Part shown: positions 1-21,257 of the stretch, one piece after another
How the letters are laid out: each line of letters starts with the position of its first letter
How positions within the stretch are numbered: position 1 is the first letter of the stretch
Virus record (IMG/VR): IMGVR_UViG_3300037245_000819
Coordinates: 1 to 21,257 of that record
From: a virus
DNA: 21,257 nt
Strand: one strand, 5' to 3'
Translations under genes and position numbers: made by a program
The notes under the pieces: generated by a model
The model's input: the letters and a program-made list of their open reading frames with translations, nothing else
Told to the model about the DNA's origin: nothing
Database searches by the model: none

Positions 1-273
1 ACGGTGATCGGGGTCGTTGCTGTCTTTGCAAGTGTCCCGGCAGCTGTACTTATGGCCGTAGCCTTTCTGCTTTACTATCTTGCAGACACGTTGATAGACG
101 GTATTTGTGAGGATGAGGGCTACACGTGTGACATGACCGTTGAAGAGTACGAGGAGTGCATAGACACTGACGTAGTAAAAAAACGATGTGACAACTGTAC
201 GTTTGGTGATGCCTGCTTGACAAAAGCATCTGACCTTTGTACGGATTGGATGGGTGTCAATGCCGAAGATTAA
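1..273 (+). CDS. Small membrane protein with Cys-rich C-terminal domain (possibly 5' partial)
   Basis: The frame is open to the left edge. A GTG at 4 is the first visible start, but the gene could begin upstream. Numbering from that GTG, residues 3-27 form a hydrophobic segment that looks like one membrane anchor. The rest is acidic and has seven cysteines (35, 42, 52, 62, 65, 71, 79), including a C-x2-C-x5-C motif at 62-71. The same spacing occurs twice in the 342-aa protein encoded at 1981-3009, so the two may share a small metal- or disulphide-stabilised module. The next gene starts 14 nt before this one's stop codon. No family was recognised. An anchored Cys-rich domain could sit on either side of the membrane, and the sequence does not say which. 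Confidence 0.7.
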   Translation, partial: TVIGVVAVFASVPAAVLMAVAFLLYYLADTLIDGICEDEGYTCDMTVEEYEECIDTDVVKKRCDNCTFGDACLTKASDLCTDWMGVNAED

Positions 274-820
274 AAAATCGACGTGCAAGATATGCAAACG
301 TAAGTACGAACCGAGGTTCGACACCAAGGTCGTCACTGCCGTTGTCTGTTCCTGTGCCTGTGCTGTTAAATATTATGAGTACCTTAAGGGCAGCATGAAG
401 GGCAGGGTACCACGGCACGTTGCAAAGGACGTGGCCAAGATGGTCGGCCGTCGGTCCATGGCTGAGGTGCAGTTTGATGCTAACTTTATTGAGGGCAAGC
501 CAATCGATGCCCTGTATGAGGCCGAGATGTTCGAGTACCCAGTGCAAGAGACCCGTAAGTATACACCAGACTGGGTGATTAAACGACCACGGTCAAACCG
601 GAAGCTGTTATACATAGAGTATAAGGGAGTGCTTGACAAGATCAGTCGAAAGAAAATGAAGCTGGTTAAGAAGGCACACCCTAAGCTTGACATCCGGATT
701 GTCTTTCAGAATGCCAGCAACAAGATCTACCGTGGGTCAAAGACCACGTATGCCAAGTGGGCAGACCAGCATGGTTTCATCTGGGCAGACAACGTGCTCC
801 CAGCCGAGTGGTTAAGATAG
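260..820 (+). CDS. Zinc-finger / T7 endonuclease I-like Holliday junction resolvase
   Basis: A predicted structure-specific nuclease that would resolve branched phage DNA. Counting from the GTG at 254 (the ATG at 260 is residue 3), residues 11-36 hold CxxC then CxCxC (C11, C14, C32, C34, C36), reminiscent of the zinc finger in lambda NinG-type proteins. Residues about 66-188 match T7 endonuclease I (Phage_endo_I family). The RSMAE, YTPD and IEYKG motifs supply E71, D106, E122 and K124, equivalent to T7 E20, D55, E65 and K67, and the E-to-D spacing of 35 is the same. The C-terminal stretch HPKLDIRIVF...YRGS...PAEW also aligns with T7. I prefer the ATG at 260, which overlaps the previous gene by 14 nt. 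T7's enzyme lacks the N-terminal finger, so the fusion is unusual. The nuclease call is firm; the finger's role is inferred. Confidence 0.9.
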   Translation: MPKIKKSTCKICKRKYEPRFDTKVVTAVVCSCACAVKYYEYLKGSMKGRVPRHVAKDVAKMVGRRSMAEVQFDANFIEGKPIDALYEAEMFEYPVQETRKYTPDWVIKRPRSNRKLLYIEYKGVLDKISRKKMKLVKKAHPKLDIRIVFQNASNKIYRGSKTTYAKWADQHGFIWADNVLPAEWLR

Positions 821-1047
821 TGGATCTCACTGGTGAGCAGGTGCCATACATAATAGGTATACCATCGGTTAAGGCCTGGGTTCTTGGAGTGGTTGCAGAA
901 AACTATGTCCTCAAGCAGGAGTACATGACACAGGACGAGAGGGGGAAGTGGGTACATGTCGAAAAAGAATACTACCGTAGCAAAAGATTCATCGACGACT
1001 ACTGGCTTGATCATACCGGCACCGTGCCGGGCAATGACGACGACTGA
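820..1047 (+). CDS. Hypothetical protein, 75 aa
   Basis: No family was recognised. The product is a small, mixed-charge, soluble protein with many aromatic residues (motifs such as KEYYRSKRFIDDYW) and an acidic end. The start is uncertain. GTG at 820 overlaps the last base of the preceding stop codon (TAGTG) and has a partial Shine-Dalgarno sequence (GAGTGG at 806-811). In-frame GTG codons at 808 and 841 are alternatives. Translation is probably coupled to the resolvase gene upstream. The following gene overlaps its 3' end by 14 nt. Its place in a string of overlapping short plus-strand genes suggests an accessory function. Confidence 0.6.
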   Translation: MDLTGEQVPYIIGIPSVKAWVLGVVAENYVLKQEYMTQDERGKWVHVEKEYYRSKRFIDDYWLDHTGTVPGNDDD

Positions 1048-1183
1048 GTATGCCGTGTTCATAGATCAGATACTGAAAGAGGATGGCAACCTTGATTGTG
1101 TACCTCAGGGTTGTTTCTTCTTTATATTCAACGGTGGATTTAACTATTTAATATGGAGGGAACCAAGATATGCCAAAGAGTAA
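1034..1183 (+). CDS. Hypothetical small protein, 49 aa
   Basis: A short protein with two cysteines close together (DCVPQGC) and an aromatic, hydrophobic middle (FFFIFNGGFNYLIW) that may be membrane-active or a packed core. ATG at 1034 is chosen because it gives the same 14-nt overlap with the preceding gene as is seen at 260-273 and 1170-1183. An upstream in-frame ATG at 956 has a better-looking purine-rich leader (AGGGGG at about 939-945) and would add 26 Ser/Thr-rich residues, but it would overlap the previous gene by 92 nt. No homologue was recognised. The function is unknown. Confidence 0.5.
   Translation: MTTTEYAVFIDQILKEDGNLDCVPQGCFFFIFNGGFNYLIWREPRYAKE
1155..1160 (+). promoter_or_regulatory. 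Shine-Dalgarno for the 59-aa gene
   Basis: GGAGGG lies 9 nt before the ATG at 1170, inside the end of the preceding gene. It is the strongest ribosome binding site of the small-gene cluster and is the main support for the short gene that follows. Confidence 0.75.
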
Positions 1184-1349
1184 GTACCCCGTGCTGTATG
1201 TACAGAACTTTACATCCAATGGTGGTGTACACCTGGATGCCTATGAAATAGAACACCGGAGAGTATTTGTTGGCACAGAGAAGTTGACAGATATCCTTGA
1301 TGAACTTTATAAACTAAGGGAATTAGTGGAGGAAAACAATGAACGGTAA
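1170..1349 (+). CDS. Hypothetical protein, 59 aa
   Basis: A short gene that is easily missed by length cut-offs. It begins MPKSKYPVLYVQNF and ends with a charged helix (KLTDILDELYKLRELVEENNER). The strong ribosome binding site at 1155-1160 and the overlaps on both sides (14 nt with the gene before, 11 nt with the gene after) support it as real. The N-terminal half looks like a small beta-rich fold and the C-terminal part like an amphipathic helix suited to dimerisation. This is inference from composition only. No family was recognised. Confidence 0.75.
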   Translation: MPKSKYPVLYVQNFTSNGGVHLDAYEIEHRRVFVGTEKLTDILDELYKLRELVEENNER

Positions 1350-1623: not shown

Positions 1624-1984
1624 CAAACAAACCGTTGTCAAACACGTTGCCAGCTGGCTCAAGAAAGATTGGGTAGTCAACGAGATAGAACAGCTTAGGC
1701 AGGATGCTGAGGAGGCACACGTGACAACGTGCACTCAAGAGGCTAAGGCCGACAAGTGGTATGGTGCCTACGAAAGAAAGAATGATCAATTCAACAGGCT
1801 CAAGGAACACTTTGACTCCAAGATCTCACAGACTAATGCTGGCTTGAAAAATAAGTGCATGATACTTCTTGACCTGATAGAGGAGTATGATAGAGCACTC
1901 ACTGCCCAGGCAGCATATGGTGGTGTCAAGATAACCACAACTAAAATAAATGAACTAAGACAACGAGGAGGATTTTCTGTATGA
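1604..1984 (+). CDS. Hypothetical coiled-coil protein, 126 aa
   Basis: The start is GTG at 1604 with GGA at 1597-1599 upstream; GTG at 1616 is a possible alternative. The protein is highly charged and mostly helical by composition. Residues about 25-75 look like a coiled coil rich in E, K, Q and A, and the C-terminal part carries a second helix (ILLDLIEEYDRALTAQ). No enzymatic motif or known family was seen. Its stop overlaps the start of the DUF5664 gene in an ATGA arrangement (1981-1984), which implies coupled translation. Confidence 0.7.
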   Translation: MGQRVDDKQTVVKHVASWLKKDWVVNEIEQLRQDAEEAHVTTCTQEAKADKWYGAYERKNDQFNRLKEHFDSKISQTNAGLKNKCMILLDLIEEYDRALTAQAAYGGVKITTTKINELRQRGGFSV

Positions 1985-3009
1985 GCACAAAAGATGACAA
2001 GGTAATGAGAAGCTTCGACACCGGAGCAACACGTGACACGGCCGATGGAAAGCTTGACATGGAAGGTTTCACCCACCCGATGGTGGAGAAACAGTTTGCC
2101 AAGTACATGAACATGAACCGGCTGCAGTCCGACGGCAACCTAAGGGCCAGTGACAACTGGCAGAAGGGTATCCCCATTGATGCCTACATGAAATCTCTTC
2201 GACGGCACCACGACGATGTGTGGCTGGAGCATAGGGGTTTTGACACTGAGGCTGGGTTGGTGGCAGCACTGTGTGGTATCATCTTTAATGCCAAAGGGTA
2301 TCTGTTGGAGCACTTGAAGAGAATGGACTGGGAACTGAAAGACTTTGACGGTGACGAGCCTACCCCTGAGATGAAGGAACGACAGGCAAAATTAAATGAG
2401 GAGCCGTTTCCGGAGGCTGGACAGAAGTTGCTTGAGTATACCGGTGACCAGACTGAGATCGATTGCACGACACAGCCGTGTCGTGAGTGTAATGAGGCTG
2501 GCATCTGTGAGGTTGCCCCGATTGAGTTTATCGACACCGAGATACCGTCCAACGTTCTTCGGTTAGAGAATCTTCAAGGGGACGAGTCCATCAACGATGC
2601 AATGAAGGTGCACGACGATGCCGTTATGGAACCTGTAATCAAAAAGTTGAGAGCCTGGTGTGAGGAGATTAACGAGGTGTTGGAGACCGTGCCCGAGTTG
2701 CCCACATGTTTCAGGTGTGACAACGAGTGCATAGACTGCCGGGACGAACCTGAGTGTACCACACACCCGTGTAATGAGTGTGACTTCACAGACGAGTGTG
2801 GGGATCTGCATGAGGAAGACAGTCGTTTGGATGAAGACGACAAAGATAGGATGGATGTCGAGGAGGGGGGACTTGGTGCAGAGGCATGCTGTGGTTGTAT
2901 GAGCCTGGACAAGACCTGGAACATGTGGCCCTGCTGTGAGTGTCGTGTTAACCCGTTCATTGACGACACGTTCAAGCACAACTATTTTACTGAACTAATT
3001 GGGAGATAA
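1981..3009 (+). CDS. DUF5664-type (dATP/dGTP diphosphohydrolase N-terminal-like) protein with acidic Cys-rich tail
   Basis: Residues 9-115 match the DUF5664 signature: RSFDTGATRDTADGKLDMEG, then RLQSDGNLRASDNWQKGIP and a helix with ALCGIIFNAKGYLLE. The family includes phage MazZ-like enzymes that hydrolyse dGTP or dATP, known from 2-aminoadenine (Z-genome) phages, but it is also common in ordinary phages. Substrate and activity are inferred. Residues 155-342 are unusual: strongly acidic with 19 cysteines. C162-C176 and C259-C273 are two copies of CTT(Q/H)PCxECx5C. The end (303-321) has CCxC...PCCEC, a ribbon-like pattern often seen at phage protein C-termini. A very good ribosome binding site (GAGGAGGA, 1965-1972) precedes the ATG. 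The tail may bind zinc. Confidence 0.85.
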   Translation: MSTKDDKVMRSFDTGATRDTADGKLDMEGFTHPMVEKQFAKYMNMNRLQSDGNLRASDNWQKGIPIDAYMKSLRRHHDDVWLEHRGFDTEAGLVAALCGIIFNAKGYLLEHLKRMDWELKDFDGDEPTPEMKERQAKLNEEPFPEAGQKLLEYTGDQTEIDCTTQPCRECNEAGICEVAPIEFIDTEIPSNVLRLENLQGDESINDAMKVHDDAVMEPVIKKLRAWCEEINEVLETVPELPTCFRCDNECIDCRDEPECTTHPCNECDFTDECGDLHEEDSRLDEDDKDRMDVEEGGLGAEACCGCMSLDKTWNMWPCCECRVNPFIDDTFKHNYFTELIGR

Positions 3010-3393: not shown

Positions 3394-6300
3394 TTATCTC
3401 TCCATTACCTTAACGAATTTCTGATAGACCTTCTCCTTCTTCTCCTTCTTTCTCTGGAGTTTCCGTTCCTGGCTATCTGTCAATCCTTTGTCCGTCTCAG
3501 CTATTGCTTGAAGTTTTTTAATCTCCTTGTTAAGTGGACGGAGTTGCATCTTGGCAAAACCTATTCGTGCCTTCTTCTTGTTGAACCCATCATACCTTTT
3601 GATATCCTTTCGTGCTTCAAGGATCATATGATTGTCCCGTACAAGCTGAGCATCCTTAAGGTTTGTCTCAAGTTTATTTATTTCAGAGTTGATCTTATCG
3701 TACTTCTGCTCGGCCATCGATTCACGACGTGTGTCTCGGATGTCCATACCACCTGCTCTCATTAGAGAGCTGAGTGCATTTGATTCACCCTGCAGGGCCT
3801 GGAGTGCCTCACTACTAAAGATCGGTAGTGACTGTCTGACGTTGTATCCAAACAGTGCAACAAGACTGCTTACTCCTTCCATCCCTTCTGGTTCCTCAGA
3901 GAATTGATTGGGCTGAGTGAATGCTCCACCCTGCTCAATCATCTCGGGTACCGTATTAAACCTGGCACCCTTCCAGTCCGTTCCAGTCATCAGTGTGTCA
4001 ACAATCCGTAAAGCAGGGGACTGCTTATGCTTGATCAAAGACTTGGGTATAATAAACCCTGTCTCTGTGAACTCACCAAGCTTAAGTATATCCTTGAAGT
4101 GTCCGACAACAGACAGCAGTGCACGTTTGTCCGGATCAACCATACCAAACTTCCGGTAGATCGGGTCCATGTTAACGGACATCCACTTGCCCTTATGCCA
4201 GTTCTTCCAAGACAACTGCTCATCGATCATTTCTCTCCAGTCCTGCCAGTCGTCGTCGTCACCAAACAAACTGAGTACGGCAACGTTAGCCAGGGCTGCA
4301 CTCATCATACCACGGAGTGCTATCCCTTTCCAGAACTTACGATAAACCTTATCCATTCCAGGTGGTGCTGGGTTGTCAGCTATGATCTTATTGAACGTCT
4401 TGTTGAATCCTGGTATCATACCAAAGACAGTTCTCCAGTTCGACTCTGTCCAGTCAGGAGCAAGAGAGAACAGCTGGGCCACCCGTTGAAGATCAGGGTT
4501 CCTACCCATCCTGCTTAGGTGAAGACCACCGAAGTCAGCATTAATAAGACGTGCTATCTTCTGTGCCTCGATCTGCATTTCTTCCTCAGTCAAGCCACGT
4601 TGATCCCCACTCTTTTTAAGAGCCTTCTCTTTCTTCTTTATGGCAATGGTTAACTCAATGGCAGCAGACTCAGCCTTGAGGCCTGCAAACAACTGACCAA
4701 ACAATCCAGTAGTCATCTGCCGTCTCCACCTTCGAGCACCCTGCCAACCGGCCAGTGCCATACGAGCACCAGGTGTCTTTCGTTTTTCAATCCACTCCTC
4801 AACGAAGCTGTCCATAATAGCTGCTTCGTCCCAGTCCTGTGTCCTACCTAAAGTCAACCCCTCACGTACAAGGAAGTCAACTACCGGGCCAAGGTGTTTA
4901 TAGTTAGGGTCCGAAAACCCTTCCTGTTGATCAATCTTTGCAAGCCCACGTCTGTAAGCTTTAATCGGATTGAGCTTCACACCCTTGTCAACACCAATCA
5001 CGTACGATCTCATACCAGCAAGGTGATGGTACATAGACACGGACAGGATTGTACTTTTGATTATAGCATTAAGCTTTCTGACACCCCTAACTATTGGTAT
5101 CTCCCAAAACTTATGTGCTGCCCTGTCACCAATCTTGTTTACAACCTTGGCTAAATCTGGCCTGGCAAAGACCTTGTATCCAGGCCGGGCAAAGCCCCGG
5201 TCTGTTAACTGAATGTAACCATCCGGTGGGTGGAACCCTTCCTCAATCTCAACCACGACTCCGTCACCGGTGTCGTTTACAAGTGAGTCCATATACTCCA
5301 CAAACCTACGGTTGGCAAAGGTGTAACCTATCTCTGTGCCGTAGGCCTGCAGGTTTGCAAGCACACCGTCGGTACGTAGTGACATGCCTGCTTCCCACCC
5401 ATCTATGATACTATCAAAGGATCTCTGCTTCCCCGAGTCAGGGGTCAACTTAAATCCCGTAGTACCTGCTCCACTCCAACTGACCATTGCATCTTTCAAT
5501 TTCTTGGGCATGTTCCACATACGTTTGACGTAGTTGTCAACGTGGGAGTCAATGATATTATGCTCCTGGGCAAATTGAAAGAAGTCCTCGTAGTACGGAC
5601 GGACGTTACTGTCCACCCATGCCACCTCTTCTTCACTAAGGTTCAGCATCCGTTCCACTATGTCCAACTTCTGGGACTCTCCTGCTGTCAGAGTCTTTGC
5701 CTTAAGCTTAGCAATAAGCTTCTTAGCAAAGGCCTCAGCCTTTGATCTGTTGTCACCGGTTCCACTGTCTATGTACAGGTTCATTGCTTTCTGCAACAGC
5801 TCCGTATCAATGGTGTTCATAAGTCTGCCCGATCCCACACGTAGCAAACGTGTGACACGTGCCTTCCTACCACCAAACTTCTCAAGGAACTCCTGCTCAA
5901 GCTGTGCTGTGAACCTATCTATATTCAGTGCACTTTGATCTCTCCAGTTGTGGATCTTACCGGTTGTTGATAGACTGTCGTTTGCTGTTTTCAAGAACTC
6001 AGCATCCTGGTCTACCGTACTCATCTTGTCTATCTGGTCAAGGTTGGCCTTGGCATCCCTGGAAAACCTTACGACCCTGGAGTAAGCACCTGAGAAACCG
6101 GCCAGGTTATCTCGGATTAGATTAAACTTCACCTTACCCTTGTCGTTCGAGAACAACTTAAGTGCAGTGTCAGATAATTTCATCTCAAGACCAGCATCAA
6201 CCCTCTCAAATCCAAAGGTGTCCTGGTACCACTGGGCCATCTCCTCATTAGCTGCAACTAAACTCCTTCCACCGGCAACGATTGCATTACCCATACGAGC

Positions 6301-9300
6301 TATGCTGTCGTTGTCCACACCAGGCTTCAACACTTTGATAGCTCCCTTCGTACTAACAGGATACTTACCGACTACAGTTTTACTTATCTGTTGTATCAGC
6401 TTCTTTTGCAAGGGACTGATAGGTGCTAATGGAACAGTCTCCATACCAATAGCCTTAGACAGTGGCCCGTCCTTTAAGTTGGGCACCAGTTCTTTAATCC
6501 ATTGGAGTGGTGTTTTGCCACCGTACTTTACGGACGGCTTATTTAATCCAGACTTATACGAGGCCACCTGTTTAATGTCTTTGCCAGTCTGGGCTGCATT
6601 GATATGCACCCACAGTGCTGCCTGCATCTCACGTGGTGTCCAGGTTGTACCAGTCTTGGCTGTCATCTGTGCTGAAAGATCGTGAAGCTTCTGACGTAGG
6701 CCGGTGATCTGGGCTATGCTAAAAGTTTCAGCCTCTTTGTTGAAAGTCAGTGGGTCACCGTAGAATGCACGGAACATCCACATGTCACCAACAGTTGCAC
6801 TCGGGTCACCCAACAGTGCCCGGCCAAACTCAGTCACCTTGAAGTTCTTGGATTCAAGATCGGCCAGCATCGATTCGGGTGACGTCCAGTTCTCATCAAT
6901 ACGTTGTTTCAATTTATTCGGAAACAAAGCACCAGGCTTGTCACGAAGTCCTAACATATAAGCATAGGTGTCCACGGCAAACATCACGTTCGTTTCGACA
7001 TCAGTCTGTGGGCTTGTGACAGCCAGCAGGATACTAAACAGGTCGGTGTCCGGACCAAAGTTCTCACTGATCATCTCCACATGCTCTGAATACCACTTCT
7101 GCAGGTTAGGTGCCTGCTTAATGACGTCCTCAGCCCACCCTAAGTAGGTCTTATCTGTCTCCATGAACTTGAGGTCAGAAATTGTCCTTGACTTGACCGT
7201 GGGACGACGTTTGGCCAGTGCCTTATCCAAAGCTATGCCAAACTTATTGGACCCCGTGAAGACGTTCTCACGGGCCACACGGAGCATATTCCAGATATCC
7301 TCATCAGACAATAGCATCTTGCTTGGATCTGCCCTAACCCCAACAAACTTAGCAGGCAACCATTTCTTGATAAAGTCCTGAAATCGTTTAAGAATACCAC
7401 GTTTTGTGGCAGGCTTAAGCTTCTCAGCCCTTCGAGCTATAATTTCCTCAGTGATCATAAGCTTGTCGGACTTCTTAAACTTGAAGACCGGCTTGCCTGA
7501 CTTGTCAGTCTCGTACCAAATATCATGCAAGTCTGCCATGTCAGCAATCGACTGGGGTTCTTTAATTGAAAACAGGGTGTATGCCTGGTTCAAGAATTGA
7601 TTGAATGCAGCTGTGTTCTTACCAAATACATTTCTCAATCCCTGGTGGGCAACCTGCTCGTGCATCCACTTCTGAACGAACTTCTCTTTGGAGTCGAACT
7701 TGTCGGCCACCATGATAAGCTTTCCATCACTGGTCCACACGGCTGACACGTTCTCAGGTATAGTCATACCAAACTCTTCTGAGGCATCGGCTATACTCTG
7801 GACAACTGTGACAGGTAATGCATTGCTGGCCACCTCGGCCATCTCATCAACCCAACCCTCCATGGTGGCAACGGTTACGTTCTCACCGAAGTCAAACGAT
7901 GTGGCATCTTCTTTGCTAAACCGTGTTGTCTTCTCACCAAACTTAAGGTGATGGTTGAAGATGTCCGTCAGCTCATCAAGCATACTCGGCACCTTTAATT
8001 GTTTCGTCACAATCAAATTCACCAGGGCATCCCACATTGTTTTGATCTTGTTGGACACAGCCTTGAACCGAGTAGGTGCAGGCATACTGTGCAGCCATGC
8101 AGCAAACTCAGGGTGTGCCATGGAGTAGGATACCAATTCGGCTATGCTTTGATCAACCTGTATGATACCCATCCGTACTCGGATGTGTGTCTTTGGATCA
8201 TCACGTAGCTGTCTCTTGAGGTCGGATGGAATAGAGTTCCACAGGTTATCAAGTTCCAAACCAAAGTCTCTCATTTCAAACCGAGTCATGTTCTTTTCAG
8301 CAATAGCTGTCAAGGCATGCACGTGCTCATGCACAACTGTTTCCATAGCCTGGTCAAGATTCTTAGCACTCGTACCAATCGACGGCAGGTTGATTATAGC
8401 AGTGTTCTGATCCTTGAGGTACATACCCTTTGAACCAGCACCGGATACACGTCGGCCGGTCCTGGGGTCAGTACGTAACTCACCCTCAAACCTTTTGATG
8501 GCATCCTCTCGTTGCTTCAAGTTATTGAACTGAGTCTTAACTGCTTCCAACTTTCCATACTGGCCGGGGGCCGTAATGAATACAGTTTTGATACCTTCCT
8601 TCTTGGTCTTGTCAAAGACAAAGGAATACTTTCCAGTTGCCATTGCAACCTGGAGTTTGTCCATCACCTCAAGGGTACCAAGTTTATCTTGCAACTTCAT
8701 CTGATCAAAATCAACTACGGTGATAGCATCATTGTTCTCGTGCCGTTGATCCAGCAACTTCTCTTGACTAATATCCAAGAAGTGCTCGGACCTGAGATCC
8801 TTGTCAGCATCGATTAACTTTGCTGAGGCTTTACGATCTGTGAACGTACCGTCGTGCTGTACAAAACCTGTAGCACCGGCCAGCTCGGCCACGGGTGCTG
8901 CCATTACCCAGTCCTCAACGGCCTGGTTCTTCATCAGGATCGATGGATGACTGGCACCCTCATATATTTTACCGTTGGGTAAACGTATAGCAGCAGCTCG
9001 AAACAAACTCTTAGCCTTGGTGGCTACATCATCGGCCATCTGCATGGCCTCTGTATCCACGATACTATCCCCAGCATCCTCAAAGAATGGCAGAGTAAAT
9101 TTGGTCCCAGCTATCTCAGTGTAATCCTCACCCTCTTTAGCCTTTCTCATTTCAGATTTATCTATAGTGGTAACCTCATCACCTTTGATGAAGTGTACCT
9201 TGTTACCCTCTGCAACTATGAAGGACTCCTGACCAAGTTCGTCAGACAGCTTCTTAGCATCTGCCTTAGTCATACCAGGTATAACAAATGGTATCTCCTG

Positions 9301-12300
9301 TGCTTCACCAAACTTGGACGTGCCAAGTCTAAACGGAATACCTGCCTTAGCTAATTTGATCTTAAGCTTGGATCTGTTAAGCATGTTCTGCTTGGGCAGG
9401 GCATCTGCACTGCCCGGGTTGTCAGACGTAACGACTACCCAGTTAGTATCCGGACGTTTAAGGTTTTCGTATGTAGTGAACTGAGTCTCCTTAGCAGCAA
9501 GCTGTGGTTCCACTGGCTTGCCAGGATCAACAACTATAGACGACCCATGTGCCATACGTGATTTATCTTTAATGGTTGCAGCAATATGATCCTTAGGCAT
9601 AGCAGTCAGGCCATCCCCAATAGCATCAAATTCGATACCTTTGGGAAGTATTGACTTGGCTTTGGCTACGGCAGTCTTTGGCTCATGTGCTTCGACCTCA
9701 GCTTTTTGCTTACTAATAGCTGCCACTCGTGCTGCCTTATCTGCCTTAGCTTCTTTGAGTTCTTCTGTACGAGTCTTACCAGCCACCGGTTTACGGAGTG
9801 CCGTACGTAAACCTGCAACTGTACGTTTACCCTTCTCAACTTTCTTAGCAACACCAGCAAGTCTCCTCTGCTCTTTCCCCTGCCTGACTTTGACATCCCG
9901 TTTCTTTTGTCGTTCAACGGCTGTGACTGCAACCTTGGCACCTTCCTTCTGTGTCTTGGCAGCAGCTGCTTCCTTCTCCTTTTTGTCTTCAAGTATGGCA
10001 CGTTTCTCCAGAAGCTTAATGTCATCGTACCCCTGTCGATCGGCTACCTGTTGTGCAATCCACTTCTCAATGGACTCATTCCTGGCCATGGTATTGGCAT
10101 CAGCATTGTTGGCACGATCTTCAATGGTACGTTTCTGTGCTTGGATTTGTAGCTTGGTAAGCTTAGACATGGGTGTCATGTCAAAGTAAGCCATCTCTCC
10201 AGTGGAGTCACGAAGCTTTATCTCAGCAACGACGTTGTCGTATAACTTAGCCACTGCTGGTTTCATTTTATTTGTGGCAGCAACGGCCTGGGTAATCAGT
10301 TCAGTCTCAAGTCCTGATGTAGTTTCAAGGGACTCGATATACTTCTGCTGCTTATCGATACGTATGTTGTTCACTGCCTTGGTCTGGGCCTGAACCTGCA
10401 GCTGGGCCTTATCATTCATTTCCTTTATGTGCATCTGTACCTGGGATATGTCGTCAGGCTTAAGGGCACGGTTACGATTGTCTGCCTCAGTGTTAGCAAC
10501 CTCTATCAACTCAATATACTTCTTGGTTAAAGTGCCTGCCTGGTCCTGGGCCATCGTGGCCATACGGAGTGCACCCTCGTGGTCACCCTCCATCATAGCC
10601 TTGTTATAGAATGAATTTAATTCACTCAGCCGGGTCTCTCCGGATTTAATCTGCACGTTGAACCTGGACATCTGGTTCTTGGTTGCAAGATCTGTGATCA
10701 CCGACTTAACAGCATCGTTGGTCTTCAACTGAGTAGCTGCCTGTTGATCCGTCATACCAAGTCTTTCGGATACAACTATCCCTTCTTCGGCAGTGTCCAT
10801 GTCCAGTAGGCCTTCCACTGTCGGACGGTTGCCGGGGGCAACGTTGATCACGTTCGGTTTAACTGCTTCCTTAGGTGTGATAAATGTGACACCATCTGAT
10901 GTGGCCTCAGCATTATAATCCTTCTCTGTCTCAACGTCTTGGTTCCTGCTGCCCATTATATGACCAGCAGCTTGAGCTACAATATTCGTGGGACCGGCCA
11001 TGCCGACACCACCAATAGCACCAACGAAACCTTGATAGGCTACACCAGCCTGGAAATCAGGACTCTTCCAGAACTCAACCATCCGTTTGATCTTCCACTC
11101 GGTTGACTTATCTTTGTGGTGAGCCATGACATCAAATATAACTTCCAGCTCAGCCTGGGCTATTTCCTCCAGACCCTCAGTAAGTCCACTCTTCCACACA
11201 GCATCAAAGAAGTTGGCAAACTTACCCATCTTCTTTGCAGCCTCTTTAGATCCAGCCTTTGCAAACTTACCAGCTGACTTTCTAAACGATCCAACAATCT
11301 TACCCATCTGGTATAACTGACTGCTGGCTTCTATGGCACCAAGCACAACACCTGCTGCCTCAGCAACTTCATACGAGTGCTGTCTATCAATACCAGAGTC
11401 GGCATACTCATTAAACTTCCCGGTCATGATGTGTGACTGGTTGACAAGCATCGATATTGCTGGGCCTACTACCGGTATCCTACCGGCCGTCATACTGATT
11501 GCCATAGGGAAGGCAAAGTGTGACATACCAGTGACTGCATCGTCAGCAACCTTCATAACTCCCCGGGCTTTTGACTCGGGAACTTCTGGTAGCCAACTCT
11601 TTAGCTCACCAATGGCATCCATGAACACTTCCCTGTTCTCATCAAACCCTTCCATGTCTGCAGGTGCATCTGGGTCTAATCCCTCGGGAACATCCATGAA
11701 CAAGCCACCACCGGCCATCATGGCCATGTCCCTGTTGGTTGGTACGTCGAACTCAGCACGGATAGCCTGTGCTTCAAAGACTGGGACAACACTACCTTTA
11801 GCAGTGGCCCACATCCTGTCCCATATATTACCAGCCTGTTCAGAAAATGTAGGTTCTTTCTTAAAGGTATCTGCCACCGGCTTACGTGGTGAGAAGATCT
11901 CTTCTGGTTTTGTTTCAGGCACCTCTGGTGTTGAGCCATAGGCAGCAAGTACTTTACTGACGTAGGCAGGGACATCATACTTGGCACCCTGCTTATTAAC
12001 ACCCCGTTTGTTTTCCCAGTTTTTCTCACTACCACTATTCCACTTGGCAGCAATCTCCTGTGGACTAAGACCATCCTTAATCCACTGATCGATCTTAAAC
12101 TTTACAACAGCCTCCTCACTCTCAGGTGTCTGTTCGATAGAACCTTTACCCTGATTATATTCTGAGGAAAACTGTTTCCAAGTAGAGGGCATAAATTGGA
12201 ATGCCCCTGTCTCTCCAGAAGCACCCTTGGCTGTGAATTTTCCACCGGTTTCGGTTTGTCTTATTGCATTTAGTAATCTTCCTGAGTCAATAGCTGGGGT

Positions 12301-12432
12301 GTCAGTGTCGTCATCATCAAATGCTCCACTGAATAGTCCACCAGTCTTAGGGGCATCAACCTCTCCCTCTTGCCCAGTATCCTCATCCTCAAATGCTCCT
12401 GAGAATAAATTTAATTTTCTTCTTGATGCCAT
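3394..12432 (-). CDS. Giant multidomain ejection (internal virion) protein with lytic transglycosylase motif, 3012 aa
   Basis: The predicted role is an internal core protein ejected with the DNA to cross the cell wall, comparable to T7 gp16 but more than twice as long. Residues 9-43 hold two SGAF-acidic repeats. Residues 50-170 resemble a transglycosylase: candidate catalytic E61 in RQTETGG, then GAFQFMPSTW at 76-85. Hydrophobic, glycine-rich stretches occur near 300-326 and 462-492. A Lys/Ala/Glu-rich helical region covers about 815-928. There are two metallopeptidase-like motifs: HEHVH at 1368-1372 with a possible third ligand E1432, and HEQVAHQGLR at 1591-1600. Segments near 1750-1950 (TSPQTDVETNV, GDMWMFRAF) and 2654 (LAPDWTESN) resemble domains of large polyvalent phage proteins. 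A membrane segment lies near 2710 and the C-terminal 100 residues are a basic coiled coil. AGGAGT precedes the ATG. Confidence 0.88.
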   Translation of the reverse strand: MASRRKLNLFSGAFEDEDTGQEGEVDAPKTGGLFSGAFDDDDTDTPAIDSGRLLNAIRQTETGGKFTAKGASGETGAFQFMPSTWKQFSSEYNQGKGSIEQTPESEEAVVKFKIDQWIKDGLSPQEIAAKWNSGSEKNWENKRGVNKQGAKYDVPAYVSKVLAAYGSTPEVPETKPEEIFSPRKPVADTFKKEPTFSEQAGNIWDRMWATAKGSVVPVFEAQAIRAEFDVPTNRDMAMMAGGGLFMDVPEGLDPDAPADMEGFDENREVFMDAIGELKSWLPEVPESKARGVMKVADDAVTGMSHFAFPMAISMTAGRIPVVGPAISMLVNQSHIMTGKFNEYADSGIDRQHSYEVAEAAGVVLGAIEASSQLYQMGKIVGSFRKSAGKFAKAGSKEAAKKMGKFANFFDAVWKSGLTEGLEEIAQAELEVIFDVMAHHKDKSTEWKIKRMVEFWKSPDFQAGVAYQGFVGAIGGVGMAGPTNIVAQAAGHIMGSRNQDVETEKDYNAEATSDGVTFITPKEAVKPNVINVAPGNRPTVEGLLDMDTAEEGIVVSERLGMTDQQAATQLKTNDAVKSVITDLATKNQMSRFNVQIKSGETRLSELNSFYNKAMMEGDHEGALRMATMAQDQAGTLTKKYIELIEVANTEADNRNRALKPDDISQVQMHIKEMNDKAQLQVQAQTKAVNNIRIDKQQKYIESLETTSGLETELITQAVAATNKMKPAVAKLYDNVVAEIKLRDSTGEMAYFDMTPMSKLTKLQIQAQKRTIEDRANNADANTMARNESIEKWIAQQVADRQGYDDIKLLEKRAILEDKKEKEAAAAKTQKEGAKVAVTAVERQKKRDVKVRQGKEQRRLAGVAKKVEKGKRTVAGLRTALRKPVAGKTRTEELKEAKADKAARVAAISKQKAEVEAHEPKTAVAKAKSILPKGIEFDAIGDGLTAMPKDHIAATIKDKSRMAHGSSIVVDPGKPVEPQLAAKETQFTTYENLKRPDTNWVVVTSDNPGSADALPKQNMLNRSKLKIKLAKAGIPFRLGTSKFGEAQEIPFVIPGMTKADAKKLSDELGQESFIVAEGNKVHFIKGDEVTTIDKSEMRKAKEGEDYTEIAGTKFTLPFFEDAGDSIVDTEAMQMADDVATKAKSLFRAAAIRLPNGKIYEGASHPSILMKNQAVEDWVMAAPVAELAGATGFVQHDGTFTDRKASAKLIDADKDLRSEHFLDISQEKLLDQRHENNDAITVVDFDQMKLQDKLGTLEVMDKLQVAMATGKYSFVFDKTKKEGIKTVFITAPGQYGKLEAVKTQFNNLKQREDAIKRFEGELRTDPRTGRRVSGAGSKGMYLKDQNTAIINLPSIGTSAKNLDQAMETVVHEHVHALTAIAEKNMTRFEMRDFGLELDNLWNSIPSDLKRQLRDDPKTHIRVRMGIIQVDQSIAELVSYSMAHPEFAAWLHSMPAPTRFKAVSNKIKTMWDALVNLIVTKQLKVPSMLDELTDIFNHHLKFGEKTTRFSKEDATSFDFGENVTVATMEGWVDEMAEVASNALPVTVVQSIADASEEFGMTIPENVSAVWTSDGKLIMVADKFDSKEKFVQKWMHEQVAHQGLRNVFGKNTAAFNQFLNQAYTLFSIKEPQSIADMADLHDIWYETDKSGKPVFKFKKSDKLMITEEIIARRAEKLKPATKRGILKRFQDFIKKWLPAKFVGVRADPSKMLLSDEDIWNMLRVARENVFTGSNKFGIALDKALAKRRPTVKSRTISDLKFMETDKTYLGWAEDVIKQAPNLQKWYSEHVEMISENFGPDTDLFSILLAVTSPQTDVETNVMFAVDTYAYMLGLRDKPGALFPNKLKQRIDENWTSPESMLADLESKNFKVTEFGRALLGDPSATVGDMWMFRAFYGDPLTFNKEAETFSIAQITGLRQKLHDLSAQMTAKTGTTWTPREMQAALWVHINAAQTGKDIKQVASYKSGLNKPSVKYGGKTPLQWIKELVPNLKDGPLSKAIGMETVPLAPISPLQKKLIQQISKTVVGKYPVSTKGAIKVLKPGVDNDSIARMGNAIVAGGRSLVAANEEMAQWYQDTFGFERVDAGLEMKLSDTALKLFSNDKGKVKFNLIRDNLAGFSGAYSRVVRFSRDAKANLDQIDKMSTVDQDAEFLKTANDSLSTTGKIHNWRDQSALNIDRFTAQLEQEFLEKFGGRKARVTRLLRVGSGRLMNTIDTELLQKAMNLYIDSGTGDNRSKAEAFAKKLIAKLKAKTLTAGESQKLDIVERMLNLSEEEVAWVDSNVRPYYEDFFQFAQEHNIIDSHVDNYVKRMWNMPKKLKDAMVSWSGAGTTGFKLTPDSGKQRSFDSIIDGWEAGMSLRTDGVLANLQAYGTEIGYTFANRRFVEYMDSLVNDTGDGVVVEIEEGFHPPDGYIQLTDRGFARPGYKVFARPDLAKVVNKIGDRAAHKFWEIPIVRGVRKLNAIIKSTILSVSMYHHLAGMRSYVIGVDKGVKLNPIKAYRRGLAKIDQQEGFSDPNYKHLGPVVDFLVREGLTLGRTQDWDEAAIMDSFVEEWIEKRKTPGARMALAGWQGARRWRRQMTTGLFGQLFAGLKAESAAIELTIAIKKKEKALKKSGDQRGLTEEEMQIEAQKIARLINADFGGLHLSRMGRNPDLQRVAQLFSLAPDWTESNWRTVFGMIPGFNKTFNKIIADNPAPPGMDKVYRKFWKGIALRGMMSAALANVAVLSLFGDDDDWQDWREMIDEQLSWKNWHKGKWMSVNMDPIYRKFGMVDPDKRALLSVVGHFKDILKLGEFTETGFIIPKSLIKHKQSPALRIVDTLMTGTDWKGARFNTVPEMIEQGGAFTQPNQFSEEPEGMEGVSSLVALFGYNVRQSLPIFSSEALQALQGESNALSSLMRAGGMDIRDTRRESMAEQKYDKINSEINKLETNLKDAQLVRDNHMILEARKDIKRYDGFNKKKARIGFAKMQLRPLNKEIKKLQAIAETDKGLTDSQERKLQRKKEKKEKVYQKFVKVMER
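12304..12408 (-). repeat. Two-copy LFSGAF-acidic peptide repeat at the N-terminus of the giant protein
   Basis: Residues 9-19 (LFSGAFEDEDT) and 33-43 (LFSGAFDDDDT) are near-identical, 24 residues apart. They sit ahead of the transglycosylase region and may be a short binding or sorting tag for assembly. The role is inferred. Confidence 0.6.
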
Positions 12433-15045: not shown

Positions 15046-16893
15046 TTAAACAATCTCCTCGGTGGACGTTGCCACTGTAAATCGTTTCACAGGTATCATA
15101 CCCTCAAGTTCAAACTCCCACTTCTTATTCTTAAATCCACGGGGCAATTTAAACATGGTGCTATTCGTTACCTTCTTTGTGAATACCCACACACCGTCAA
15201 CATACACCTTGAAGTCAACGTAGTTCTGAACACCCAGTGAACGTAGAGTATACAATGTGTCACCATTAACATCCTGCTCGTTGAGCATAAATCCATTAAA
15301 GGCACACCTCAAGTCCTCAGTCCACAGTGTGGCATTTAAAGTCTTAAGAGTTTCGTTATCCTGAATGTCCCCTATTACGGTTTCATAAAACTCAGTGTCA
15401 AGTATAACTTGGGCCACCTTAAAGTTCTGTGGCTTCTCAAGTATTACCCGGGGTGACTTGTATGTGAAGTTCCTATACTCCTCAGCATCAGCATCCCAAC
15501 TGGATATATATAGATCGGTTGGGGCTGTTACTTCGGACTCAACAATGGTGTCAAAGTCACCACCCTGCAGTGTCACGTGGGCAGCATAGTGATACTTCAC
15601 ACCTGACGTCACTGCACCATTTAGGGTATCCAATATAACAAGGCCTTCTCTTTCAGCCGACTTATAAAAACCGTAGTATGCTTTATTCCACCAGGTACCG
15701 TGCATGGTGGTCAGCTCATAGTCATTCCAATCCTCAGGCTTAAACATCTCAGATGTCATGTTACTAACACCACCGGCTGTCACGTGCTGGAACCCTTCAC
15801 CCGAAGGGAATAGAACACCCTCGTCCGTTTCAACAACTGCACGTTGGGACAGGCACGGCTGAAATGCCAGCTTCGTTTTGTACAAGGATGTGGGGTGAGG
15901 ACCAGAGAACGTGTAAATATTTCCATCGGTAGCAACCACAATGGTAGATCCGTACACTCCTATTCCAACGATCTCTTGATCGATCGGTATCTGGTAATCT
16001 TCTGGCCATGCCCACGGGGCAAATGGTTCACTGAAATATAAGGTGTTACCCTTAGAGGCAACGAAGAAGCCACCTGGGTGGCCTCGTAAATTCGTTAGGT
16101 CATCTGGTGCCCTGTCGTAAAAGATTGATGTACAGACAGCACCAAGGTTGGCATCCGTAACCGTATCCACATATTCATATGCTGCCCAGGCCGTCCCGGC
16201 CGGGCCAGTATTATCCACGGCTATCTCCTCAACAAGCAAGAAGGCAGCAGTGCCTTCTCCATCCGTTGATGTTCGGTAGATCCTGATAGCTGGGGCATTG
16301 CTTCCAATGACCGTGTCCAGATGTTCGTCTGCTGCAACCGGAGCTGTAAAACCATTCAGGTCAACAGACGAGGCAGCAGTGTAATCAACTATCTCTGTCA
16401 GTGCCGACGGTGGTCCTTCCTCACCATACCGACTGACGTATGTCCAGAAGTATGCCCGATATACAGCACCCGGTGTATAGTTGTCTGCCACGAGTGCAGC
16501 CGGGGAAGGTGCCCCCGGGTAATAGAAGTCTGTCGTGAAGTCGAAGTCACCGGCCAGCTGTAAATCATTTACAAATGCCTTGTACTTGCCATTGACAGAG
16601 TCTGCACCGGTGAGGTACATACGTTCGAACGTGTCGTTAGCAGTGGGTGATCTTACCCAGTGGACAATTAAGTCGTAGTAGACCCAGTTGGTATTACCAC
16701 CCTCAAGATATTCAAGGAGGGACTTATAAGATGCTCCAGCCAGCAGGACGTCTGGTGTTGACTTACGATAAGCCTTGAGTTCTCCGGAGGCCACCTTAAC
16801 GTCAGCAGCTGTCTGTCCAAAACCGTCTGGCAGCTTGTCGTTTGCTATTTTGGGCATGATGCCCTTGAACTCATTAACCTGTATCTTTGCCAT
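15046..16893 (-). CDS. Tail nozzle / DNA stabilisation protein (T7 gp12- or P22 gp10-like), 615 aa
   Basis: The N-terminus (VNEFKGIMPKIANDKLPDGFGQTAADVKVASGELKAYRK) has the pattern typical of phage nozzle and packaged-DNA stabilisation proteins: 'G..P..a...L....a..a.nv...sG.l.p.r'. The body is beta-rich with aromatic blades (GGFFVASKGNTLYFSEP, EIVGIGVYGSTIVVATDGNIYTFSG), as expected of the beta-propeller nozzle below the adaptor. The length is within the usual range. GAGGA precedes the ATG. The start lies inside the end of the 111-aa gene (20-nt overlap). The family call is good; whether it is closer to T7 gp12 or P22 gp10 cannot be settled by eye. Confidence 0.82.
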   Translation of the reverse strand: MAKIQVNEFKGIMPKIANDKLPDGFGQTAADVKVASGELKAYRKSTPDVLLAGASYKSLLEYLEGGNTNWVYYDLIVHWVRSPTANDTFERMYLTGADSVNGKYKAFVNDLQLAGDFDFTTDFYYPGAPSPAALVADNYTPGAVYRAYFWTYVSRYGEEGPPSALTEIVDYTAASSVDLNGFTAPVAADEHLDTVIGSNAPAIRIYRTSTDGEGTAAFLLVEEIAVDNTGPAGTAWAAYEYVDTVTDANLGAVCTSIFYDRAPDDLTNLRGHPGGFFVASKGNTLYFSEPFAPWAWPEDYQIPIDQEIVGIGVYGSTIVVATDGNIYTFSGPHPTSLYKTKLAFQPCLSQRAVVETDEGVLFPSGEGFQHVTAGGVSNMTSEMFKPEDWNDYELTTMHGTWWNKAYYGFYKSAEREGLVILDTLNGAVTSGVKYHYAAHVTLQGGDFDTIVESEVTAPTDLYISSWDADAEEYRNFTYKSPRVILEKPQNFKVAQVILDTEFYETVIGDIQDNETLKTLNATLWTEDLRCAFNGFMLNEQDVNGDTLYTLRSLGVQNYVDFKVYVDGVWVFTKKVTNSTMFKLPRGFKNKKWEFELEGMIPVKRFTVATSTEEIV

Positions 16894-17209: not shown

Positions 17210-17233
17210 ATTAAATTCCCCCTGAATTTAAAT

Positions 17234-18223
17234 TTAGTCTCTGGTTATGATTAAACCACCGGCAGCTTTCGGCCGGTCGGTGGATGGTGCTGATCCCGAG
17301 CCAGTGTTGGCTGTTCCGGACGAACCGGTTAGGACAGAGGCATCCCCATCAGTTGATGTGACACCTGTTCCAGATGATCCTGTGTTTCCGTGGGCATGGG
17401 ATGCTCCACCACCTTTCACGGCTGTCGTTACAGCAGACGATCCACTTGTGGTGTCCACCTGGTAGTGACCATTCTCACCAGAACCATTCTGCCATTTGCT
17501 ACTCGGTAGGGTATGTGAATGGCTGGGCATCTCAGCTATGGTAAGCACATGTCCAGCTGTCGTATGTAAATGTGATGGTCCGGTATGACTGTGGGAGGCA
17601 GACACCACGGAGTGTGTGTGTGCCGGGCCGGTGTGAACGTGAGTCGTGGGTGTCCACGATCCAGCTACTGTTTGACCTGCCACATTGTAGGCCTGTGCTC
17701 CACCAACTACTGCAAGCAGTGAGTCGGCTGGCCCTGTATCGATTGTCCATCCAGTCGGTATATCAGCCTCAGCATTATAGATCCACAGCTTGGTACCTGT
17801 TGGGGCACCTAAGATTTGATCAGTCTCCAGTGATGCTATACGAACATCCAGGGCAGCAATATCAACATCATTAGATGTTATGTTGGTGCCGTTGGTTGCA
17901 ATGTCGTCTCGGTACTCTTCAAGAATAACCTTTGGCAACCGGAGTTGAATCTGATCCGAGGCCAAGAAAGCCCTGGCCGTGGTGTCATCCTGGGCACGTT
18001 CTATTACAGTAAAGACATTGGACCCATCTGTACGGTGGGTACATTTGATAATCTCCCTGTTGCCAGATTGATCCACAATGGTGGCATAGAAATAATCTTC
18101 GGGTCCAGCTGACACTGCTGGAAATAGATTGCCGTCACCAGCTTGTACCTGCAGTGTGGTTGCCGAATCTGTTATTGGTAGGGCAAGAGTACTCTCACCA
18201 TTATTTGTAAATTTTACTCCCAT
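17234..18223 (-). CDS. Tail fibre / receptor-binding protein with HxH repeats, 329 aa
   Basis: Residues 1-105 match the common virion-attachment domain of phage tail fibres (STLALPITDSATTLQVQAGDGNLFP, YFYATIVDQSGNREIIK, TTARAF...IQLRLP). Residues about 108-137 are a short trimer-type coiled coil. Residues 195-278 carry HxH pairs at 195/197, 202/204, 211/213, 218/220, 235/237 and 276/278. This resembles the metal-binding needle of T4-type fibre tips, where HxH sites from three chains hold iron. The C-terminus (STDRPKAAGGLIITRD) resembles tail-collar ends. HxHTGP(A/S)HxH is present twice. GGAGGAT precedes the ATG, which overlaps the upstream gene by 10 nt. It probably binds the host surface. 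Confidence 0.85.
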   Translation of the reverse strand: MGVKFTNNGESTLALPITDSATTLQVQAGDGNLFPAVSAGPEDYFYATIVDQSGNREIIKCTHRTDGSNVFTVIERAQDDTTARAFLASDQIQLRLPKVILEEYRDDIATNGTNITSNDVDIAALDVRIASLETDQILGAPTGTKLWIYNAEADIPTGWTIDTGPADSLLAVVGGAQAYNVAGQTVAGSWTPTTHVHTGPAHTHSVVSASHSHTGPSHLHTTAGHVLTIAEMPSHSHTLPSSKWQNGSGENGHYQVDTTSGSSAVTTAVKGGGASHAHGNTGSSGTGVTSTDGDASVLTGSSGTANTGSGSAPSTDRPKAAGGLIITRD

Positions 18224-18930
18224 GACGATCCTCCACTATTTGCATTGCTACCCCCAACAACAATAAAGTTCTGTGGGATAACCCTACCTGAGTATTTTCC
18301 TGTACCTGTCAATGTTGTCTTACGGGCTTCTCGGACACCATCAATAAATGCCTGTGCAAATGTGGCAGACACCCGTTCATTATACCAAGTTGCTTCTGGA
18401 ATTATGAGCACCTTAGAAAGAGCACCGGCCTGGATTACTTCGTGCCACTTCTCATAGATAAATTCATCCACTTCTGTCTGGCCACGTTTATACGTGACAA
18501 TAGATTGTACTGTAAAGTCCTCATCATCTATATCTGCAGTAGGGGTTGGCCACACCCGAATTGTATTCAGCTCATCAGTAAGCCAATAATGTGTGGGCTT
18601 GCTATTACTTCGTTCTCTCCAGTTGGGGAATACACTGTCCATCTCCCTCTCTGTTATACGGGTTAGTGGAGACGAGTCTGACAGCTTGGCAGAGTCTACT
18701 GCAATAGCACGGTATCTGTTCTGAGGATATTTCAAAGTGTATGTGTGTACGTCCTCTTCTAATTGAAATGCTGACGGAGTTTTCTTGAGCAGCAGAGACT
18801 TGTTACATAAGTCAATGGCTGAGTTTATTAAATGAATCCTCAGCATAATGCTTGGAGCACCATTACAGTACTGCAACATCTCTGGTAAGAACTCGTCAAG
18901 CAATGTGTATCCTGCCGATGCTGTTGCCAT
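18214..18930 (-). CDS. Head-to-tail adaptor-like protein, 238 aa
   Basis: The sequence TLLDEFLPEMLQYCNGAPSIMLRIHLINSAIDLCNKSLLLKK at the N-terminus followed by a beta-rich centre (YRAIAVDSAKL, THYWLTDELNTIRVWPTPTAD, FTVQSIVTYKRG) and a terminal helix (ATFAQAFIDGVREARKT) fits phage adaptor proteins of the SU10 / T7 gp11 type, which form the ring under the portal. The adaptor family is inferred from this layout and from position next to another adaptor-like gene and the nozzle. AAAGGA precedes the ATG; the gap to the upstream gene is 6 nt. No anomaly was seen. Confidence 0.72.
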   Translation of the reverse strand: MATASAGYTLLDEFLPEMLQYCNGAPSIMLRIHLINSAIDLCNKSLLLKKTPSAFQLEEDVHTYTLKYPQNRYRAIAVDSAKLSDSSPLTRITEREMDSVFPNWRERSNSKPTHYWLTDELNTIRVWPTPTADIDDEDFTVQSIVTYKRGQTEVDEFIYEKWHEVIQAGALSKVLIIPEATWYNERVSATFAQAFIDGVREARKTTLTGTGKYSGRVIPQNFIVVGGSNANSGGSSWE

Positions 18931-18936
18931 ATGTTA

Positions 18937-19587
18937 TTATTCCTTTGGCTCAGGTCCGGAAGCTGACGATGTTGCCAACTCAACCTGGAGCAGTGTGAAA
19001 AAGTTTTGCATATATGCCATAGCCTTCTGGAACTCAGTACCTTCGTCGTCGGTGATGAAAGCTTTGTATAGCATGTACTGCACGATTGGTTCAAAGAAAA
19101 CGTCGTTGATCCCCAGCTCATCGGCCGGGATTGCAACTGCCGTGGGTAGCTGTGCTACCTGCATTTCAACATACACTGCTGTGGTTGCATGGCACGGTGG
19201 GGTTACGTAGTATATCCGTGGGTTCTCTTTGTCGTATGAAAAGTTATCTATTGCTGTGTCTCCAGTGGCAGCTGGCCAAAGAAGATTTGAATAGTCAAGG
19301 TGCTTTCTGTCAGCCGGGGTTATAATCTTCCCAGCAGTCAATCCATCAACACCCATGTTTCTCGTGATGTCAAGTAGTCTCAATGCTGTTGCAGGCAGTG
19401 TCTGTAGGACACCTGGAACCAACTGTACGTTTGCTGTCTGTGCACCGGCATCTGGTCTGACAAGGACCAAGGCCCGAATAGAAGCATTCAGGTACTTGAT
19501 CCATTGGTCAGAATCTATCCGGTCATAGCCAGTATCACCATACAGGTCAGCAGCATCGATTATGTAGTCACTTGCTGTGAATGCCAA
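18937..19587 (-). CDS. Phage head-tail joining protein, DUF6682-like, 216 aa
   Basis: The N-terminus (ASDYIIDAADLYGDTGYDRIDSDQWIKYLNASIRALVLVRPDA) fits the DUF6682 pattern, in which a helix ends in 'WLN.A.r.iv..rPdA'. This family is often found next to N4-gp56-type capsid genes and is thought to be a connector or adaptor component. The centre is beta-rich (NPRIYYVTPPCHATTAVYVEMQVAQLP), followed by helices and a polar end. The start is a TTG at 19585-19587, supported by AGGAG 9 nt upstream; no in-frame ATG is nearby. It lies directly before the adaptor-like gene, with 6 nt between them. Confidence 0.75.
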   Translation of the reverse strand: MAFTASDYIIDAADLYGDTGYDRIDSDQWIKYLNASIRALVLVRPDAGAQTANVQLVPGVLQTLPATALRLLDITRNMGVDGLTAGKIITPADRKHLDYSNLLWPAATGDTAIDNFSYDKENPRIYYVTPPCHATTAVYVEMQVAQLPTAVAIPADELGINDVFFEPIVQYMLYKAFITDDEGTEFQKAMAYMQNFFTLLQVELATSSASGPEPKE

Positions 19588-20139: not shown

Positions 20140-20167
20140 ATTAATTATTCCTTCCAATAATTAAGTT

Positions 20168-20219
20168 AAAAAAGTGTGCCCAAGGGCCAGGGGGATAGCC
20201 CAAGGGCCTTGGGACACAC
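20168..20219 (-). terminator. Intrinsic terminator / attenuator downstream of the capsid gene
   Basis: Positions 20174-20188 pair with 20204-20219: fourteen base pairs with one bulged base (20214) and one G-G mismatch. On the minus strand the stem is followed at once by six U (20168-20173). It lies between the capsid stop and the next gene, so partial termination would give more capsid mRNA than downstream mRNA. The loop side contains a second copy of GCCCAAGGGCC (20178-20188 and 20198-20208). Confidence 0.75.
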
Positions 20220-20233
20220 AGTTATTTTAAAGC

Positions 20234-20283
20234 AATGGGTAGGCTATGTACCGTGACCACGGCTTTCAGCTCACCTACCCATT
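20234..20283 (-). repeat. Perfect 10-bp inverted repeat with inner hairpins, 3' of the capsid gene
   Basis: AATGGGTAGG (20234-20243) and CCTACCCATT (20274-20283) are exact inverted repeats. The 30-nt interior can form a second stem, CCGTG/CACGG (20251-20262), and a small GC-TGAAA-GC loop, giving a branched structure starting 10 nt after the capsid stop codon. There is no U-run, so it is more likely an mRNA 3' structure or a protein-binding element than a terminator. Confidence 0.65.
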
Positions 20284-20293
20284 AATGTCTAAC

Positions 20294-21257
20294 TTACGAC
20301 AGGTCAGATACAGCAACTTCACAACGGGCCATCCAAAAGTCGTTCAGGATGATTGTTGCAGAATAACCCTTCCAACCAACGTGTCCTCTCTGTGCCAATG
20401 GATCGGAATCACTTGCCTTCGGATTCACAACCATAGGTGTCAGAGCATTTGCTCCCTTGAAAGCCACGATACCATAAGCATCACGGGCAAGGAAAAGCAT
20501 TGGATAGACGTCGGCATCACCGGCTGTCTCAAGGACGTTGGTTCCACCAGATGTTCCACCACCGGCAAAAGGCTCGATGATTGTGGTGGCAAGATAACGG
20601 ACATCCTCAATTTTACCAATCTCACCGTCCCAAGGACTCATCGTTCCATACTTCTCAGCCGGTACGAAAGAACTGATAGCACGGAGGTCAGGCTCAAGGT
20701 CGGGGTGGACGATACAGATAAACGAAGGTGCAATGGCTTCTGTTCCGTAAGCAGGTGTACTTTTCACGGTAGAAGTAATTGCTTTACCCAGCTGCCTTTT
20801 CAGGAACCGAGTTACCCGACGTTGATCATTTAAAGCAAACACGGTGTTGACGGAGGCACGGGCAGAACCGTTCGAATAGAAGACGTTGGTACCGGCCTTC
20901 AACACGTTGTAACGGGTCTTCTCAATAAGCACTGCTGCCTGCTCACCAAGAATGTCCACTGCCTCTTTCAGGATAGGATCTTCATGGAAGTCCAAGACCT
21001 GGTCGGTAATGACTGTTCGGTCACCATACTGCACAAGGGTGGCCTCATAGTCTGAACTCTCAAGCACTGTAGCATCAGGTGTGATACCTTCTGTCAGTGT
21101 CTTTTTGGTTGGATCAAAGTTTGTACCCTTAAAGTATTCGTGAGGATTGAAGTCACTCCCGAAGGTAGAGGTAAAAGTGCTGTCCAAGTAGTACCGACGG
21201 AACTGAATTGTCTTGGTACTTTTGGCAGGCAACGGTTTGGCCTGACCAAACTTCTCA
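20294..21257 (-). CDS. Major capsid protein, N4-gp56 family (N-terminus outside window)
   Basis: About 320 residues of the C-terminal part are visible. The frame is open to the right edge; the segment before PAKSTKTIQFRRYYLDS reads EKFGQAKPL, so the gene starts beyond 21257 and the TTG at 21232 is not its start. Typical N4-gp56 features are the 'KFGxAxPLPxKxxKTIxFRRY' start, EGITPDA, the GDRTVITDQVLDFHEDPILKEAVDILGEQAA segment, then VHPDLEPDLRAI, EIGKIEDVRYLAT and a GTNVLETAGDADVYPMLFLARDAYG core. It forms the icosahedral shell. Two hairpins follow the stop codon. Members of this family occur in both podo- and siphoviruses, so the family alone does not set the tail type. The neighbouring genes favour a short tail. 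Confidence 0.9.
   Translation of the reverse strand, partial: EKFGQAKPLPAKSTKTIQFRRYYLDSTFTSTFGSDFNPHEYFKGTNFDPTKKTLTEGITPDATVLESSDYEATLVQYGDRTVITDQVLDFHEDPILKEAVDILGEQAAVLIEKTRYNVLKAGTNVFYSNGSARASVNTVFALNDQRRVTRFLKRQLGKAITSTVKSTPAYGTEAIAPSFICIVHPDLEPDLRAISSFVPAEKYGTMSPWDGEIGKIEDVRYLATTIIEPFAGGGTSGGTNVLETAGDADVYPMLFLARDAYGIVAFKGANALTPMVVNPKASDSDPLAQRGHVGWKGYSATIILNDFWMARCEVAVSDLS

Follow-up and report, generated by a model that had tools for sequence, protein, structure and literature searches.

Complete absence of the trinucleotide GCG/CGC from the genomes of a widespread family of environmental phages

Environmental phages of one widespread family have purged the trinucleotide GCG, together with its complement CGC, from their genomes. 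The window, by which we mean the whole 21,257-bp stretch of the IMG/VR record IMGVR_UViG_3300037245_000819 analysed here, was counted on both strands and contains GCG zero times and CGC zero times, exactly as an earlier note on this DNA had claimed. With a G+C content of 47.7%, independence of bases predicts about 575 copies of the two words together, which agrees with the 250-300 copies per word estimated in that note, and a dinucleotide Markov model predicts 138 GCG and 157 CGC, or 295 together. The note had further held that CpG as such is not depleted. This stands for the other contexts, where ACG, CCG, CGG and CGT occur in excess (1.25-1.5x expectation) and CGA (1.09x) and TCG (1.00x) lie near expectation, but not for the overall CpG ratio of the window, which is as low as 0.58 because GCG and CGC are missing. 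No excess of GTG or CAC was found. The sole other 4-base word at zero was CTAG, with 28 copies expected.

The absence does not follow from the choice of codons. When the window was shuffled synonymously, keeping its proteins and its own codons, from whose pool GCG and CGC codons are already missing, 265 ± 13 copies of GCG/CGC arose, with a minimum of 224 in 500 shuffles, against none in the real sequence. This codon- and protein-preserving shuffle, which the earlier note had proposed, rules out an effect of codon usage and bears out its statement that codon pairs must be constrained. Selection at the level of RNA, for instance by a MazF-type mRNA interferase, would deplete the sense strand only; both strands are at zero. 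Since GCG and CGC are gone whichever strand codes, and also from the tRNA genes of two relatives (G001 and G002), the constraint acts on DNA and not on mRNA or codons. At L085:2091-2757, a set of five tRNA genes encoded by a phage (Ala, His, Thr, Ile and Asn) carries no GCG or CGC.

We examined how far the absence extends among relatives, gathered from IMG/VR with capsid, portal and sister-capsid queries. In 50 contigs comprising the window and its relatives (470,991 bp from 21 metagenomes, about 40 kb of it near-duplicate), GCG/CGC occurred 0 times against 6,540 expected. A single CGC in contig L126 lies inside a Nextera transposase adapter at the end of the public viral contig (L126:7980-8010), and this contig was trimmed ahead of the adapter before the pooled count. 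The earlier note would have been contradicted had GCG been normal elsewhere in the genome; as far as this can be tested it was not seen, as the 41-kb relative G001 has 0 copies against 634 expected. Nucleotide identity between GCG-free lineages is often just 70-77%, and therefore the GCG-free state has been kept through much divergence. GCG is normal in relatives of lower identity and in sister lineages, some of them from the same metagenomes, which speaks against an artefact of a single assembly. Taken with the count of 0/6,540, the normal GCG of the distant relatives excludes an assembly or sequencing artefact altogether. Among bacterial genome contigs, the capsid of the clade had no match and the portal matched distant relatives alone, in Marinomonas and others, all GCG-normal. 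One portal match, at 48% identity, was a GCG-normal 14-kb contig filed under a Methanofastidiosum MAG. The DNA polymerase of G001, searched against IMG/VR, matched only itself.

The window is part of a lineage of short-tailed phages with T7-like replication genes, and its features are collected in Table 1. The 3,012-aa protein had no match among PHROGs; its position and size suggest an internal virion or ejection protein. Because the capsid proteins of relatives are about 40 aa longer, the N-terminus of the major capsid protein is probably clipped by the end of the window. The 41-kb relative G001 also encodes a family A DNA polymerase, a primase, a DnaB-like helicase and an exonuclease, which make up a T7-like replication set, and further carries RtcB, an RNA ligase and a number of HNH genes. 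The RtcB and RNA ligase genes (L082:4490-5620 and L082:8864-9997) constitute an RNA-repair set, which could counter host anticodon nucleases. Named phages with a related capsid, terminase or portal, all below 60% identity, infect Roseobacter, Rhizobium, Pseudomonas, Vibrio and other hosts.

Table 1. Annotated features of the window
Feature	Position	Strand	Match and remarks
T7 gp3-like endonuclease I	254..820	+	phrog_945; 58-60% identity to G001 homologue matching Pfam Phage_endo_I
Early protein	1981..3009	+	phrog_18716; 43% to G001 protein matching dATP/dGTP diphosphohydrolase N-terminal domain
3,012-aa protein	3394..12432	-	clade-conserved, about 43-49% identity
Internal virion protein	15046..16893	-	phrog_511
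Tail fibre protein	17234..18223	-	phrog_8469
Virion structural protein	18214..18930	-	phrog_437
Virion structural protein	18937..19587	-	phrog_399
Major capsid protein	20294..21232	-	phrog_1357; used in capsid trees

The history of the constraint was followed in capsid and portal trees. One large clade takes in most of the GCG-free contigs and adjoins GCG-normal clades, and a further GCG-free lineage, L094, stands beside the GCG-normal L095 and L097. Within or adjoining the large clade are lineages that contain GCG/CGC, with observed over expected counts of 61/278 (G004), 19/79 (L122), 7/64 (L123), 13/70 (L100), 63/78 (L157) and 68/95 (L020), that is, 11-80% of expectation; L122 and L123 are nearly identical over their overlap. 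G004/L009 and L157 are placed inside the GCG-free clade, and therefore the constraint has been lost there. The copies in G004 are scattered along its genome, mostly as alanine GCG codons and at junctions of a C-ending codon with an alanine codon. GCG in the relaxed lineages is preceded by A, G or T and followed by all four bases; CGCG is not present, and this word is separately missing from GCG-normal sisters. Avoidance of CTAG persists in these lineages. Since nearly all contexts return together, save the separately avoided CGCG, it is well supported that the constraint falls on the trinucleotide itself, as the earlier note had proposed, and that it can be lost.

GCG is one of many short words eliminated in this group, the others including CTAG, GGATCC, GCCGGC, CTCGAG, CGCG, CCAGG and GGACC, many of them palindromes resembling Type II sites. 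CTAG is purged throughout the wider group, GCG-normal members included, and the GCG-free contigs as a pool show strong depletion of GGATCC, GGGCCC, GCCGGC and CTCGAG, among others. Each eliminated word has its own pattern of distribution, and the avoidance of GCG is independent of the other avoided sites: G010 lacks GCG yet carries GCCGGC at 14 copies against 9.3 expected, and G004 contains GCG and GCCGGC and lacks CTAG and GGATCC. The GCG-normal sister G015 (L233-L236, 69,127 bp) has 30 words missing or nearly so, among them CGCG (0/111 expected), CCAGG (0/106), GGACC (0/72) and CGACG (0/63), as well as some GCG-containing six-mers. A second GCG-normal sister, G016 (L237-L239, 40,724 bp), has 12 words eliminated or nearly eliminated. 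The words purged in these two sisters include CGCG, CTAG, CCAGG, GGACC, CGACG, CCCGGG and GAGACC. Such a pattern of many eliminated words looks like avoidance of many restriction systems, and its extent in G015 and G016, far above that in the GCG-free phages, suggests that their hosts harbour unusually many of them. Among distant relatives, L216, L217 and L218, which come from isolate genomes, have GGCC and GCGC missing or nearly so, again clearly by site avoidance, and in L225, L226, L229 and L232 the words AGCT, CCGG, GGCC and TCGA are jointly missing or nearly so.

On the basis of these results, the best explanation is probably a restriction-like defence, encoded by the host and directed at GCG, which the phages have escaped by removing every site; it is favoured in that GCG shares the behaviour of the other purged restriction-like words of the group. 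This was one of the causes suggested in the earlier note; another of them, a process of methylation, deamination or damage, has become improbable in view of the total absence and of the lack of a single product word. We infer a host enzyme as the agent, its action on DNA, and a modification of GCG in the host's own genome. In such a scheme the defence would recognise GCG, a non-palindromic site of 3 bp, in unprotected DNA and cut or damage it, the host would shield its own GCG by modification, and the phage, having no detectable modification gene, would escape by carrying zero sites. A lineage that shifts to a host without the system would no longer be under selection, and GCG would slowly be refilled by mutation. 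The search for methyltransferase genes in the phages that the earlier note had suggested came out negative, with no match to C5 or N4/N6 DNA methyltransferases (PF00145, PF01555) among 15 records that include many fragments.

Several observations do not fit this explanation smoothly. GCG, being a non-palindrome of 3 bp, is not an orthodox Type II site, and among bacterial restriction enzymes none that naturally recognises 3 bp was found in the literature searched. To our knowledge, no bacterial restriction enzyme has a specificity as short as GCG. If the defence were shared by other phages of the host, GCG-free phages outside the family would also be predicted; the few searches made, with RtcB and with a GCG-free tRNA-Ser, revealed none. 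Nor does a host defence predict that GCG-free genomes have fewer other purged words than their GCG-normal sisters, as is the case. We nevertheless lean slightly towards the view that some uncultivated bacteria possess an anti-phage system which targets DNA, reads nothing but GCG and is strong enough to make a whole lineage of phages purge all of its hundreds of sites per genome.

The specificity could instead belong to the phage. A phage-encoded endonuclease or nickase may attack GCG in the DNA of the host or of competitors, the phage itself being immune for want of sites. Virus-encoded nickases with 3-bp sites do exist, such as Nt.CviPII (/CCD) and Nt.CviQXI (R/AG) of chloroviruses (PMC7019647), and sites of 3-5 bp are recognised by an HNH nickase from a phage (PMC8845596). 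G001 has several HNH-type genes, among them those at 6039-6443, 15187-15606, 15952-16266 and 17157-17603. Among the fetched loci, which include few early regions of other GCG-free phages, the first of these (L082:6039-6443) has its sole homologue in another GCG-free record, G017 (L240:8155-8628). The HNH genes of G001 resemble common homing endonucleases, however, and the one shared with G017 is probably of that kind. Furthermore, the chlorovirus nickases are paired with viral methyltransferases, none of which was found here, the removal of sites would need to precede or accompany the acquisition of the enzyme, and one enzyme would not explain the many other words purged in the group. A weapon of the phage is therefore unlikely, if the most plausible of the alternatives. 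Less probable again is that no 3-bp target exists and that the absence is the union of many GCG-containing restriction sites of 4-6 bp (GCGC, CGCG, GCGG, GACGC and so on). The hosts do seem rich in restriction systems, as G015 lacks some 30 words that include CGCG and a few GCG-containing six-mers. A patchwork of sites should, however, be lost or relaxed piecemeal, whereas the GCG-free contigs are all exactly at zero in every context, no contig is purged in part of the contexts beyond CGCG and a few six-mers, and the relaxed lineages show nearly all contexts.

Two further explanations are highly improbable. A mutational process, whether deamination in a specific context, damage at methylated bases or a bias of the polymerase, has the depletion itself in its favour and nothing further. 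The pooled count corresponds to at most about 0.05% of expectation, too low for ordinary mutation bias, and the GCG-free counterparts of the GCG words of relatives vary, in a small sample, among GTG, GCA, ACG, GCT, TCG and GCC. That no single product word replaces GCG, with GTG and CAC not in excess, rejects deamination in particular. To escape CRISPR, a phage requires point changes in the targeted protospacers only. The loss of GCG as a protospacer-adjacent motif is an equally unlikely route of such escape: depletion of these motifs has been reported in phages, and the accessible text of the study concerned describes depletion and not total loss (Kupczok and Bollback 2014, PMC4246573).

Avoidance of restriction sites by phages is already known; the total loss of a 3-bp word is the unusual part. 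In the survey of such avoidance in non-temperate phages by Rusinov et al. (2018, PMC6286503), it was seen almost solely for orthodox Type II sites. The present family resembles the phages of that survey in that a short word is completely, or almost completely, eliminated from a dsDNA phage and in that several of its other purged words are Type II-like palindromes; it differs in that GCG is only 3 bp long, is no palindrome and would be expected hundreds of times per genome. As in restriction-site avoidance, the word lies far below the expectation from composition and codons and the effect is exerted on DNA, but GCG is not a site of the kind that orthodox Type II systems recognise, which usually is a palindrome of at least 4 bp. 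The chlorovirus nickases demonstrate that DNA specificity can go down to a non-palindromic 3 bp, although they come, with viral methyltransferases, from viruses of a eukaryotic alga (PMC7019647), and in the phages studied here the sites have been removed, not modified. A bacterial anti-phage system with a modification motif of just 3 nt is found in SspABCD-SspE, the phosphorothioate defence with the motif 5'-CCA-3'; SspE, however, depends on the phosphorothioate mark of the host and on another motif, and the accessible part of that report describes no removal of the motif from phages (PMC9646914). Selection against a very short word of phage DNA is also seen in the depletion of protospacer-adjacent motifs, which in the available portion of that paper falls short of total absence (PMC4246573). 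The open-access literature, outside of which most subscription papers lie, yielded no report of a GCG-free phage or of a non-palindromic word of 3 bp that had been lost in full.

That a 3-bp word has stayed wholly absent in relatives differing at about a quarter of their bases points to a defence, or a weapon of the phage, that recognises 3 bp, and suggests that phages are able to evolve around it. If the agent is a host defence, its target would be unusually short for a bacterial one. A new enzyme of practical use, a 3-bp cutter, modifier or nickase, is predicted, and GCG-free DNA would serve as a natural control for finding it. The lineages apparently released from the pressure, which have refilled GCG to differing degrees, may provide a clock of sorts.
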